DNA of 64,000 nt from Croceivirga sp. (GTDB taxonomy: Bacteria; Bacteroidota; Bacteroidia; Flavobacteriales; Flavobacteriaceae). Under the pieces are notes generated by a model. The model worked only from the letters and a program-made list of their open reading frames with translations, made no database searches and had not been told where the DNA came from. The stretch's first letter is position 1; each line of letters opens with the position of its first letter. A program made the translations under genes and the position numbers. The stretch spans positions 55,911 through 119,910 of the forward strand of contig JANQKR010000014.1 of the NCBI GenBank assembly GCA_028281025.1, given 5' to 3'. Shown here piece by piece: positions 1-5,129 of the stretch.

Positions 1-1
1 C

Positions 2-1219
2 ATGTTCTTTTCAGGAGCTATAGGCTACAAACCCTATAAAAGCATCCTGGTAGGAATCGACCCAAACAAAGCTGGCTATTTCAATTACCCCATGCCCTTT
101 TGGAAATCCGCAAAAATCGTATTGCTCAACAATAGCGGCCAGGCTTTTGATTTGGACTACGGCTTTCACATTTCCGAAAAAACCTATGCAGACCATGCAG
201 GATATTTCCACTCGTGGTACCATGAAGAAAAACCAACCACCGCTTACCAAGATTATACCCTTTTACGAACCGGCGGCTGGGGGCATTGGGTGGCCACACA
301 CCACCACTTGGGTGGTAGCGGAAAACTGGGGTTTCTCGAAGGGGATGAACGCATCTATTACGATGGCATGCAGACACCTGCCCTGCAAGGCAGTGGATAT
401 GAAGACTTCTACAACGGCTCCTATTATTTCCAGTATGGTGAATACAACCTGCCCGTAAGCGGCGTGCAGATGATGCGCCATATATATGAGACCCGGGATG
501 GCTGGGGGGATCGAGTGATTTCAGAACGCCTCGAAGAAGGAAAATCGAACCTGATGCTGTACCGCCATCTCGTGACAGACTGGATACCGTTCAATGATGG
601 CATCAAAGCGGGTGCAGAAGTAGGCCCTGAAGGAAATCAGGAACGCATGTATGAAAGCGTCTCTTTTTACTACGGAAAGCCCGAAAGCAAACTGGCACTC
701 ACCGATGAAATCAATGTGGGCGATGCTGCATCGGAAAAAACGCATGGCTATCAAACAAAACAAGCAACGGGCATTGCACTGACCTCCACCTACGAAGGCG
801 ACCATGACGATATAGAACTGTCCGACGAAGGAAATAGCATTGGGCCTGGCGGCAGCTCAACGTTTACGGTGAAAATCGATGAAAATAACATCGGCGTAAA
901 ATTGAGAAGGCGTTTGAATTATGCGAATCTCAACCAAAAAGCCAAGGTAATGGTGGACGGTGAAGAAGCAGGCGTTTGGTTCACTGTTGGAAACAACGAA
1001 CACCACAGCATGCGGGAAGATGAGTTTTTGATCCCCACTGCCCTGACCAAAGGAAAGAGTGAAATTGCTGTGACGATAGCGCCCATGCCCTTTAGTAGTG
1101 ATGAAATGAAAGACGGCCAACAACCCAACCCGAAGAACAACACCTATATGGAACGAAAGATTATTCCCGAAGGCCCCTGGACAGAACTCCACTATTGGGT
1201 GAACTGCGTGCTGGAATAA
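2..1219 (+). CDS. DUF2961-containing protein (GH172-like), 5' end probably outside window
   Basis: Long ORF touching the left edge; GSGYEDFYNGSYYFQYG...YRHLVTDWIPFNDGI resembles the DUF2961 core, followed by a beta-sandwich-like C-terminal region. Confidence 0.65.
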   Translation: MFFSGAIGYKPYKSILVGIDPNKAGYFNYPMPFWKSAKIVLLNNSGQAFDLDYGFHISEKTYADHAGYFHSWYHEEKPTTAYQDYTLLRTGGWGHWVATHHHLGGSGKLGFLEGDERIYYDGMQTPALQGSGYEDFYNGSYYFQYGEYNLPVSGVQMMRHIYETRDGWGDRVISERLEEGKSNLMLYRHLVTDWIPFNDGIKAGAEVGPEGNQERMYESVSFYYGKPESKLALTDEINVGDAASEKTHGYQTKQATGIALTSTYEGDHDDIELSDEGNSIGPGGSSTFTVKIDENNIGVKLRRRLNYANLNQKAKVMVDGEEAGVWFTVGNNEHHSMREDEFLIPTALTKGKSEIAVTIAPMPFSSDEMKDGQQPNPKNNTYMERKIIPEGPWTELHYWVNCVLE

Positions 1220-1256
1220 ACCGCGTGCAATAGATGTTTCCAACAAAAGGTTAAGA

Positions 1257-1846
1257 TTGATTTCCAACAAGATGGTGAGACGTATTGAAAAAGTACAGGT
1301 ACGGGTTGTGTTGCTATTCATTGCAATATCCCTTTTTAGCTGTAGCTCGGATTCGGAAAAAGGCCAAAACACAGACAAGCAATTTACCTTGCTTGAACCT
1401 GAAGCTACCGGAATACGTTTGCCAATAGGATTCGGGAGGATGCAGGGAACTTTATATATCTCTTTAACTACGCGTATAATGGAGGGGGAGTAGCTATTGG
1501 AGATATAAATAATGACGGGCTTCCTGATATCTATTTTACAGGCAATCAAGTCGCTGACAAACTCTACCTAAATAAAGGAAACCTGGAATTTGAGGACATA
1601 AGCAAAACATCTGGAATCGATCAACTGAGAGGATGGAGAAATAGAGTGACAATGGTGGATGTAAATCAAGATGGCTTTCTTGATATTTATATCTGCAGGG
1701 GAGGTTGGAATGACACGTCAGAAAACAGAAAGAACCTTTTGTACATCAATAACGGTAAACAGGGTTTTACCGAACAAGCAGCCACGTATGGTTTAGATGA
1801 CGATGGATATTCCGTACAGGCTGCCTTTTTTGATTTGGACAATGAC
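1257..1846 (+). pseudogene. FG-GAP/VCBS-repeat (CRTAC1/ASPIC-UnbV-like) lipoprotein, frameshifted and truncated
   Basis: Lipoprotein-like start (LLFIAISLFSCSS) in frame 3; a 1-nt shift near 1418-1420 restores ...GIRFANRIREDAGNFIYLFNYAYNGGGVAIGDINNDGLPDIYFTGNQ..., continuing as ORF 1646 with DVNQDGFLDIYICRGG and DLDNDY; ends at the IS left end. Confidence 0.8.
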
Positions 1847-1977
1847 TATAATTCCCCCATCCTTAGGACAGGTTTTCTTTAGAAATAAGTTTGATGATGA
1901 TGTTGAAATGAGGGGGTCCGGGGGAGACTGATAACTCCCCGTTTTTGTTGAAAACCCTATTTTCCCCTTTGGCACCA

Positions 1978-2845
1978 TCATGCCGCTTTTCTTTTGCTAT
2001 GTTGATAAATTGTTGAGGGCGTTTCGTCCTCCAGGCTTTGGTGCCTCCTCTCGAGGTTATAGTACCTGAAATATTGCTCCAGTCCCCGATAGCATTGCAG
2101 CCCGTCGTCTGCCGGGAACAGGTATACGTGCTCGTTTTTTACGCTGCGCCAGAGCCGTTCCACGAATACATTGTCCAGGGCCCTTCCCTTACCGTCCATG
2201 CTCAGGCGTATGCCCTGTTCGGGAGCGGTCGCCCAGTTACAGAACTCGTATGCCGTGAACTGGCTTCCCTGGTCGGTATTGAGGACTTCCGGTGCGCCGT
2301 GCTCTTCTATGGCCGCCTCCAATGTCCTTTTGCACCACTCCGATGTCATGGTGTTCGATAGCGACCAGCCGACAACATAGCGGCTATAAAGGTCGATGAT
2401 GGCGCACAGGTACAGATAGCCGCCCTGAACGGGGATATAGGTGATGTCCATGGCCCATACCTGTCCGGAACGTTCTATCTCAAGGCCCTTCAACAGATAT
2501 TTGTATACCCTGTGCAGTTCGCCCTTGCCCTTCTTCGAGGTATTGGGCTGTCGGCCCCCTGGCCGACAGCCCCATCAGGCGGAAGAGCCGCTCGATCCGC
2601 TTTTTGTTGATTGCGTACCCCTTGTCCTTTTGGAGCCATGTGGTAATCCGCGGCACCCCCAGCCAGGGATGCAACATGTTCTCCTGGTCGATAAGGCGCA
2701 TCAGCTCCAGGTTCAGGGCGGACTCGCCCTTGGGCGTGTAATAGACCCCGCTGCGGTGGATATCCAGCAGCTCGCACTGGCGCACCACGCTCAGACCCGA
2801 TGCCTTGTCAACGTGCCGCCTCCTTTCCTTGGCACCCTCTTTCAT
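1978..2845 (-). pseudogene. IS3-family transposase OrfB (rve integrase core), split by an internal frameshift
   Basis: N-terminal part 2845..2480 (HTH_21-like, LGVPRITTWLQKDKGYAINKKRIERLFRLMGL) and C-terminal part ending 1978 (VWAMDITYIPVQGGYLYLCAIIDLYSRYVVGWSLS) are in different frames; the shift maps to a hairpin at 2545-2572. Confidence 0.85.
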
Positions 2846-3117
2846 GACAAGGCTTTCTTTAAAAAATCGATCTCCATCTTCTGCTGGCCGATCGTCTTGA
2901 GCATCCGTTCCTCCTTCTTCTGGGGCTCGGTCTTGGCGTCCTTGGGCTTCTTGGAGAAGACCTCCTCGCCGTTCTTGAGGAACTGCGACTTCCAGTTGGT
3001 AATCTGGGCCGGGTGGATATCGTACTTTCTCCCCAGTTCCTGGATGGTATGGCGTTCCGATAACGCCTCCAGGACCACTTTGAACTTGAACTTCGGTGTG
3101 TGTTTTCTTCTGCTCAT
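2842..3117 (-). CDS. IS3-family transposase OrfA (HTH_Tnp_1)
   Basis: MSRRKHTPKFKFKVVLEALSERHTIQELGRKYDIHPAQITNWKSQFLKNG...; typical OrfA. Confidence 0.9.
   Translation of the reverse strand: MSRRKHTPKFKFKVVLEALSERHTIQELGRKYDIHPAQITNWKSQFLKNGEEVFSKKPKDAKTEPQKKEERMLKTIGQQKMEIDFLKKALS
2857..2863 (-). promoter_or_regulatory. Candidate -1 ribosomal frameshift site T TTA AAG between orfA and orfB
   Basis: On the minus strand ...GAT TTT TTA AAG AAA GCC TTG TCA TGA; the -1 frame reads TTT AAA GAA AGC CTT GTC ATG AAA GAG into orfB. Confidence 0.55.
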
Positions 3118-3182
3118 TTGACAGTGAATTTAAGGTTTAAAATTAAACTTAACTTACTGTACTAATATTGGGGGGAATTATA

Positions 3183-3538
3183 ATACCTTCATCCCACTTG
3201 ATTGAATACGTGCCTCTGCGACCTCAAAGAATGACGTGTGGCCATCATTTTTGACTCTATTTTTAATTTGCTTTGTGGTTAAGTTTCCTCTGAAATTTCT
3301 GTTTCCAACAAGGCCACATGAGCTTCACTAAGCTTTTTCAGCAACAGATTATTTAGACGATTATAGTTTGAATAGAATTTTTTTGCTTTTTTACCAATAT
3401 CATCCCAATCCCTCTCATATATGGTCTCACCAGTGAAGATATAGCTTGGTTTTCTATTCTTTATAAACGTATTGCAATAGGGATTTTGCCATTTTTACGT
3501 TTCTTATGTTTTACTAGAACCAATTGGACTGAAGACAT
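3183..3538 (-). pseudogene. Degenerate tyrosine recombinase/integrase, N-terminal (Arm DNA-binding/SAM-like) remnant
   Basis: Manual translation with two frameshifts (~3461-3466 and ~3277-3284): MSSVQLVLVKHKKRKNGKIPIAIRL/IKNRKPSYIFTGETIYERDWDDIGKKAKKFYSNYNRLNNLLLKKLSEAHVALLETEISEET/TKQIKNRVKNDGHTSFFEVAEARIQSSGMKV; resembles Bacteroidota phage-integrase N-termini; not in ORF track. Confidence 0.75.
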
Positions 3539-3580
3539 ATTATTTTTTTCAGTAAATATAGGCTTTCACATCCAAAAAGG

Positions 3581-3601
3581 GGTAAAACATAGGTAAAACA
3601 T
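3581..3601. repeat. Direct repeat pair GGTAAAACAT, period 11
   Basis: GGTAAAACAT a GGTAAAACAT at 3581-3590 and 3592-3601. Confidence 0.85.
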
Positions 3602-3693
3602 TTGGTGGTTTTTTATGGTTTAAAATGAATTTCAAAAAAACTTATTTTATTGATTATAAGATATTTAAATATTTTTAAATATAATACTGGTAA

Positions 3694-3709
3694 GGCTCAT
3701 AACCCGAAG
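3694..3709 (+). other. tRNA-fMet anticodon-arm-like 16-mer (candidate attachment core)
   Basis: GGCTCATAACCCGAAG is identical to the anticodon arm of bacterial initiator tRNA, with no tRNA D-arm, T-arm or acceptor around it. Confidence 0.5.
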
Positions 3710-3756
3710 ATCTTCTCAAATATTAAGCCTAATAGTGTTGGTTTTGATTCAAAAAA

Positions 3757-3776
3757 AGAACTAATACAGAACTAAT
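3757..3776. repeat. Direct repeat pair AGAACTAAT, period 11
   Basis: AGAACTAAT ac AGAACTAAT at 3757-3765 and 3768-3776. Confidence 0.8.
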
Positions 3777-4017
3777 CAAGTATTATCTTTTTATATATAC
3801 CTGTCTTACAGATAATTTAATCTGTATATATGACGTTCAGAACGTATACCACACCATGAAGGAATGATTTTTGAGACCAAAATGTTGTGTATTTCTCCTT
3901 TGAATAGTGTTGAACAGGTGGTTTCCTTCCCTTGTTGAATAGCTATGTTGAAAAATAATTCCCCAATTCCCTGTAATCAATGGCACCTGCCTCCCGACTA
4001 AGCACAAAAGGACATCC

Positions 4018-4515
4018 ATGTATCGCATAATGCTGGTAATTCTGCTGCTATGTTCACTTTTTGAGGTATCTGCCCAAGGGATGACCTCGGAAAAACTGTT
4101 GCACATTATCCAAGCGGAAGCGGATACGGTCAGTGTTCAAGGAAATTCCATTCGATTCTTATTTAATGATACCATGCTTGTTTGTATTTATGATGAGGGC
4201 GCCAATCGTATGCGTATCATTTCACCTATTGTGGAACGGGAGAAACTTGGGGAGGAAGAACTATTAAATGCCCTGGTTGCCAATTTTCATTCCGTATTGG
4301 ATGTGAAATATGCGTTGAGTGATGAAGTAATTTGGTCCGTTTATGCCCATCCCCTCAAAGAATTGAGCGAAGCCCAGGTCATAGATGCCATTCAACAAGT
4401 CTATGCGGCCGCAATTACATTTGGTAAAAGTTATTCCAGTACCAACTTGGTTTTCCCGGGAAATACGGAAAAAAAGGAAAAGCCGAAAGCACCCAAGATT
4501 TTAAAAAAGACGTAG
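4018..4515 (+). CDS. Hypothetical secreted protein (possible YbjN/T3SS-chaperone-like fold)
   Basis: Signal peptide-like N-terminus MYRIMLVILLLCSLFEVSAQG; soluble alpha/beta protein with KT-rich tail. Confidence 0.7.
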   Translation: MYRIMLVILLLCSLFEVSAQGMTSEKLLHIIQAEADTVSVQGNSIRFLFNDTMLVCIYDEGANRMRIISPIVEREKLGEEELLNALVANFHSVLDVKYALSDEVIWSVYAHPLKELSEAQVIDAIQQVYAAAITFGKSYSSTNLVFPGNTEKKEKPKAPKILKKT

Positions 4516-4521
4516 CGTTAA

Positions 4522-4570
4522 GGTTGATGGTTGATGGTTGATGGTTGATGGTTGATGGTTGATGGTTGAT
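4522..4570. repeat. Heptanucleotide tandem repeat (GGTTGAT)x7
   Basis: Seven perfect 7-bp units, 49 bp, between convergent genes. Confidence 0.97.
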
Positions 4571-4583
4571 GGAAGCTAAAAGA

Positions 4584-5129
4584 TTATCCAAAACTGTATT
4601 CCGGAATTTTTCCTTTTACCCCTTTGAAAAATTCCCCCACCTTCCCAAAGTCTTTGTTGATATCATCACTTGTCCATAGCGGCTCTGATATTTTCACCTG
4701 TTTTTTTCCAAAATCGAAAGCGACCATAACAATGGGGACATTGCTTTTTCTAGCGATATAGTAAAACCCCGTTTTTAGTGCACTTACTTTTTTTCGGGTA
4801 CCTTCTGGCGCCAACGCAAATCGGAAAACCTCCCTTTCTGCAAAAACCTGGGCCACGGCATCCACCATATTTTGATTCTTGGAGCGATCTACCGGGGTCC
4901 CTCCCAACCATCTAAAAAACCACCCGTAAGGGGCTTTGAACAACCCTTTTTTTCCAACATAGTGAATTTCCTTGTTCACCACCTTACGGACAATTACCCC
5001 CAATGGGAAGTCCAACCAATGAGTGTGGGGAATGACAATGACAACGCACTTGTCCAGGTTGGGAAAAGTTCCTTCCAACTTCCATTTCATCACCTTAAAA
5101 AAGATGAACTTAGCAATAAGGTGCAGCAT
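4584..5129 (-). CDS. 1-acyl-sn-glycerol-3-phosphate acyltransferase-like (PlsC family)
   Basis: PHTHWLDFPLGV and APEGTRKK motifs. Confidence 0.85.
   Translation of the reverse strand: MLHLIAKFIFFKVMKWKLEGTFPNLDKCVVIVIPHTHWLDFPLGVIVRKVVNKEIHYVGKKGLFKAPYGWFFRWLGGTPVDRSKNQNMVDAVAQVFAEREVFRFALAPEGTRKKVSALKTGFYYIARKSNVPIVMVAFDFGKKQVKISEPLWTSDDINKDFGKVGEFFKGVKGKIPEYSFG

Follow-up and report, generated by a model that had tools for sequence, protein, structure and literature searches.

An island inserted in yebC and a putative fossil tRNA-fMet element end as two adjoining attachment systems in Croceivirga sp.

Islands that split a target gene and restore it on integration are of a well-known kind, represented by the Islander/TIGER class (PMC4383910, PMC12884075), and tRNA islands whose attachment site is centred on the anticodon correspond to subsite A in Islander (PMC4383910). 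In Bacteroidota, mobilizable and conjugative elements that carry polysaccharide-utilization genes have also been described, for example from the gut (PMC6907783). The locus reported here lies near the start of a 64-kb stretch of Croceivirga sp. DNA located on contig C2 of the assembly (the whole stretch is termed “the window”). The original prediction, made from this DNA alone, had seen a single attP/attL-like array, in which two repeat pairs with an 11-bp period flank a 16-mer from the anticodon arm of tRNA-fMet beside an integrase remnant and might mark the right boundary of an island. The features of the locus as we now read them are summarized in Table 1.

Table 1. Features at the right end of the yebC island (window coordinates).
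Feature	Position	Strand	Basis or remark
yebC island right end as seen in the window	1-3867		Synteny with the empty site in G002
GH172-type (DUF2961) gene, 3' part, island cargo	2-1219	+	PF11175, E 8.7e-38; ORF C2_55066_57129
FG-GAP gene fragment cut by the IS3-family element	1646-1860	+	PF13517, E 5e-8
IS3-family insertion sequence	1847-3182	-	NF033516 above cut-off, PF01527, PF00665
tRNA-fMet-type tyrosine integrase remnant	3205-3538	-	~107 N-terminal residues, arm-binding domain, frameshifted
GGTAAAACATAGGTAAAACAT (GGTAAAACAT x2, 11-bp period)	3581-3601	+	Putative arm site for integrases of the tRNA-fMet family; 113 bp to core
GGCTCATAACCCGAAG (16-mer)	3694-3709	+	tRNA-fMet anticodon arm as putative fossil core; lies within the yebC island
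AGAACTAATACAGAACTAAT (AGAACTAAT x2, 11-bp period)	3757-3776	+	Predicted arm-type site of Int_yebC at the right end
attR core and displaced yebC 3' end (CAGAACGTATACCA identity block, then ...CCATGAAGGAATGA)	3838-3867	+	attB/attL/attR comparison
Chromosomal right flank (ORF 4018-4515, then further genes)	3868-5129		Contiguous with intact yebC in G002/G004

Both repeat pairs and the 16-mer were found where the original prediction had placed them. The two pairs are the only non-simple ones in the entire window (criterion: 11-bp period with a run of at least 9 matches, simple sequence left out), and simulated 656-bp regions held a mean of 0.0095 pairs under a dinucleotide model, with none of 2,000 sequences containing two. 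As had been noted, the 16-mer is GC-rich (56%) in AT-rich DNA, the repeat region having 29% GC vs 42% for window positions 4018-64000. Allowing one mismatch, it occurs at three sites in the 5.1-Mb genome, namely in the window, in a tRNA-fMet gene on contig C26 and in a tRNA-fMet attR on the same contig, while its reversed-pattern control occurs nowhere; the suspected origin from tRNA-fMet is borne out by these two other copies, and the concern that the 16-mer might simply be frequent by chance is dispelled by the count. It stands without a surrounding tRNA, no tRNA gene being found within the 64-kb window. That the 16-mer and the repeats meet here by coincidence has a vanishingly small probability: the simulation and the genome-wide count rule out a chance origin, elsewhere in the genome the 16-mer is found only at two tRNA-fMet att sites, and the geometry described below is conserved across genera.

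The boundary of the island was located by comparison with 60 relatives, among which long matches to window positions 3540-4600 came from two congeners, G002 (96%) and G004 (88%). These matches start not at the 16-mer but at about window position 3832, in sequence encoding the last residues of YebC, and in both congeners the site is uninterrupted, with intact yebC leading directly into the window's right flank, so that the empty-site comparison suggested earlier is at hand. The single yebC of the window's genome is on contig C7. From 27052 upward C7 aligns to G002 at 97%, from 59748 (window position 3838) C2 aligns to it at 95% over the available 2.2 kb, and the two alignments abut on G002 with a 28-bp overlap; therefore, the island lies between ~27.05 kb of C7 and 59.75 kb of C2, in the 3' end of yebC. 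To the left of the window it runs on to C2:1 and includes C7 from 1 to ~27.08 kb, amounting to at least 86.8 kb, which the assembly breaks. Because attL and attR are on different contigs in this genome (C7 and C2, respectively), it is from synteny that we infer a single continuous island running from one to the other. Both ends of a yebC island do lie on one contig in G169, G292, G114, G380, G249, G322, G206 and G345. attL and attR share the identity block given in Table 1, the intact target being on C7 and the displaced 3' fragment in the window; the restored YebC C-terminus, EEDDDVQNVYHTMKE, is unchanged, and the regenerated yebC adjoins an intact integrase and an identical arm repeat. Synteny with G002 thus upholds the predicted island, which ends on the right here, extends leftward and has the GH172/FG-GAP genes inside. 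The 16-mer as its boundary was rejected, since synteny breaks at 3838 and not at 3694-3709; attR lies 129 bp to the right of the 16-mer and consists of the displaced 3' end of yebC, and the matching attL is on C7.

The intact tyrosine integrase, which we call Int_yebC, is encoded at C7:25745-26965 and has Arm-DNA-bind_5, Phage_int_SAM_5 and Phage_integrase domains; together with AGAACTAATATAGAACTAAT and relaxase and MobC-type genes it is found beside attL. The genome holds exactly two copies of the AGAACTAAT pair, one at either end of the island (the second at C7:26934-26953). A homologue of Int_yebC is present in 12 of 400 family genomes; in 11 of the 12 it comes immediately after yebC and has a repeat of this kind, as it also does at 12 of 13 named loci from Flagellimonas, Allomuricauda, Maribacter, Euzebyella, Gelidibacter, Sediminicola and Tenacibaculum, a set that partly overlaps with the family genomes. 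Left ends mostly have 132-134 bp between arm and core, two having 122. Seventeen distinct right ends were found, and all of them have a displaced yebC end and 81 bp from the arm to the core CAG, or 82 in a single case. This architecture was seen in about 20 genomes, and islands recurrently insert at yebC in Flavobacteriaceae, spanning 10 to 170 kb when a single contig holds both ends; the fixed arm-core geometry supplies integrase/attB pairs ready to test. In four further genomes (G006, G003, G008 and G036), 7-20 kb separate yebC from its neighbour gene and no AGAACTAAT-type integrase was found there, possibly reflecting other elements at the same spot. The yebC right end of Sediminicola luteus (L092, ~994-1347, oriented strand) has within 500 bp a degenerate C-terminal half of a tyrosine integrase, with 34% identity to the fMet family and without an fMet core.

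The tRNA-fMet gene on C26 heads a tandem array (G000:C26:77461-138400) with tRNA 3' halves at 77499, 106926, 135836 and 138356. All four copies are identical from CTCATAA, in the anticodon loop, through the tRNA 3' half and differ before it; CTCATAA is the predicted overlap of the fMet core. The array is composed of two ~29 kb elements (77.5-106.9 and 106.9-135.8), the first with a broken integrase, and a 2.5-kb piece without integrase. In either element the two ends share an arm sequence, namely TGTACAACAT x2 in one case and CTGAAACATAT-CTGAAACA in the other. Nineteen family loci of the C26 type carry the tRNA-fMet 3' half next to the integrase gene and one further locus is a near match; in these 20 an arm pair of 11-bp period lies ~121-135 bp before the fMet core (imperfect in two), and the distance in the window is 113 bp. 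The search for the two window repeats beside intact related integrases, as had been proposed, found both conserved there as arm-type sites.

The integrase remnant in the window is real, consisting of N-terminal residues in shifted frames that match Pfam Arm-DNA-bind_5 (E 1.7e-6) and the intact C26 integrase (53% over 62 residues, E 2e-9, tblastn); the SAM-like and catalytic domains are missing. The suggestion to trace the tRNA beyond the 16-mer gave a negative answer, identity ending after 16 nt (18/19 with one mismatch). The tRNA-fMet 3' half found at family attR sites is absent from the window core, and we therefore speak of a “fossil end” and not of a functional attR; no tRNA-fMet half was found anywhere on C2 or C7. 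Nor was a second copy of the GGTAAAACAT arm pair found on C2, on C7 or elsewhere in the genome, and since the two ends of each C26 element share one arm sequence, this pair would represent one end of an element whose other end has been lost. Positions 3205-3709, with their integrase arm-binding domain, P-arm repeat and anticodon-loop core, are accordingly best described as the decayed right end of an fMet element. The 16-mer is 47 bp from the yebC arm site, and the DNA between them has no homology to Allomuricauda profundi, G415 or F. hadalis and resembles no other right end.

We are thus highly confident that 3757-3867 is the attR of the yebC island, and that 3205-3709 is the fossil right end of an fMet-type element just inside it. 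As this fossil end lies so close to the island edge, the earlier reading took two attachment sites as one. Its assignment of the att features to the tyrosine-integrase type with arm-type repeats stands, and what falls is the single attP/attL, the two pairs belonging to two integrases. A single site, its left arm being GGTAAAACAT, its right arm AGAACTAAT and its tRNA-fMet core the island boundary, would account for the order of repeat, core and repeat next to an integrase remnant, but is highly improbable given the synteny break at 3838 and the AGAACTAAT pair, which is found again next to another integrase at the opposite end of the island and also in yebC islands without any fMet core; moreover, fMet elements carry the same arm at both ends, whereas the pairs here differ. 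With two sites recognized, a vague att-like array becomes two precisely mapped systems, in each of which integrase, arm sites, core and target are matched.

Both island boundaries, the empty site, the conserved arm/core geometry, the regenerated yebC and the two integrase families are observed features, from which the following mechanism can be proposed. Int_yebC would integrate a mobilizable island into the 3' end of yebC and split the gene, the element bringing replacement last codons at attL (on C7) while the original last codons are pushed to attR; with the replacement supplied by the element, the YebC protein would remain unchanged. Judging from sequence, Int_yebC would bind and recombine through the CAGAACG core and, close to either end, the arm repeats with their 11-bp spacing. 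The fMet element end would have become fused to the yebC right end and lost its own movement.

How the two ends came together can be approached from the other yebC right ends, two of 16 having an fMet core shortly inside the yebC arm: in G415 it lies 82 bp inside, with a decayed integrase and an arm-like pair, and in A. profundi 86-87 bp inside, with a tRNA-fMet 5' half. One explanation would be integrase switching, where an fMet-specific element acquired a yebC module beside its attP and the old integrase and attP became vestigial; the fMet integrase remnant, arm and core do stand back to back with the yebC module like a compound attP, and the arrangement in G415 is similar. We consider such switching rather unlikely, however, as 14 of the 17 yebC right ends have no fMet core, and the yebC island and the C26 elements share no gene content, only the integrase and a two-component pair matching weakly. 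The case of A. profundi also speaks against it: two species without an fMet junction have an identical Int_yebC, and the similarity between the A. profundi right end and F. hadalis stops at the junction (85% identity right of the core, with the DNA on the left replaced). The fMet end of A. profundi is thus a recent gain, made where a yebC end already existed. The three fMet/yebC junctions are on separate branches of the Int_yebC tree. Because of this recent gain and these separate branches, we favour capture, either by secondary-site insertion or by deletion-fusion with subsequent loss of the rest, over an ancestral switch; for the window we do so only tentatively, given that its DNA between core and arm is unlike that of the other junctions. 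That fMet ends have repeatedly and independently joined yebC right ends, making the spot a preferred landing or fusion site, is a tentative idea that we would rather doubt; if true, the preferred site would offer islands a route to nest or to exchange integrase specificity. The junctions themselves may be read as a record of islands nesting or changing integrases.

The GH172-type ORF starts left of the window, at C2:55066. On that side (C2:1-55910) the cargo includes a ribulokinase-like sugar kinase, an L-fucose isomerase-like protein, an L-fucose permease, sulfatases, GH3 and GH2 enzymes and a hybrid two-component regulator in addition to the GH172-type gene, suggesting a cluster for a sulfated, fucose-containing polysaccharide. 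The relaxase (PF03432, E 1.6e-33) and a NikA/MobC-like protein are encoded beside Int_yebC, and no conjugation genes beyond these two were seen in the island parts examined; from this anatomy the island is probably mobile. The IS3-family element has inverted ends TATAATTCCCCC / GGGGGAATTATA and stands between the FG-GAP fragment and the integrase remnant, with no second copy in the stretches examined. In the right flank, window positions 4518-4572 hold a short tandem repeat of GGTTGAT, of which near-identical copies occur at many sites in the genome and in congeners.

Our literature search, covering a single collection, turned up no paper in which yebC serves as an integration target and returned nothing on CTnDOT arm-type sites; within that collection, the kind of system is known and its target appears unreported. 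In common with Islander/TIGER islands, the yebC island has a tyrosine integrase beside one end, an empty site in relatives, an intact target at one end and a displaced fragment at the other; it differs in that the target is the protein-coding gene yebC and that the right end holds a fossil second att module. Like subsite A islands, the C26 elements and the window fossil have a core starting at the anticodon loop CTCATAA, and attR of the fMet family carries a 3' tRNA fragment; unlike them, the copy in the window lacks the tRNA 3' half, has no tRNA in its vicinity and is probably inactive. With the gut elements of PMC6907783 the yebC island shares a tyrosine integrase with a SAM-like domain, relaxase and MobC-like genes and carbohydrate cargo, whereas here the cargo is of the fucose/sulfatase kind and the host is a marine-type flavobacterium.
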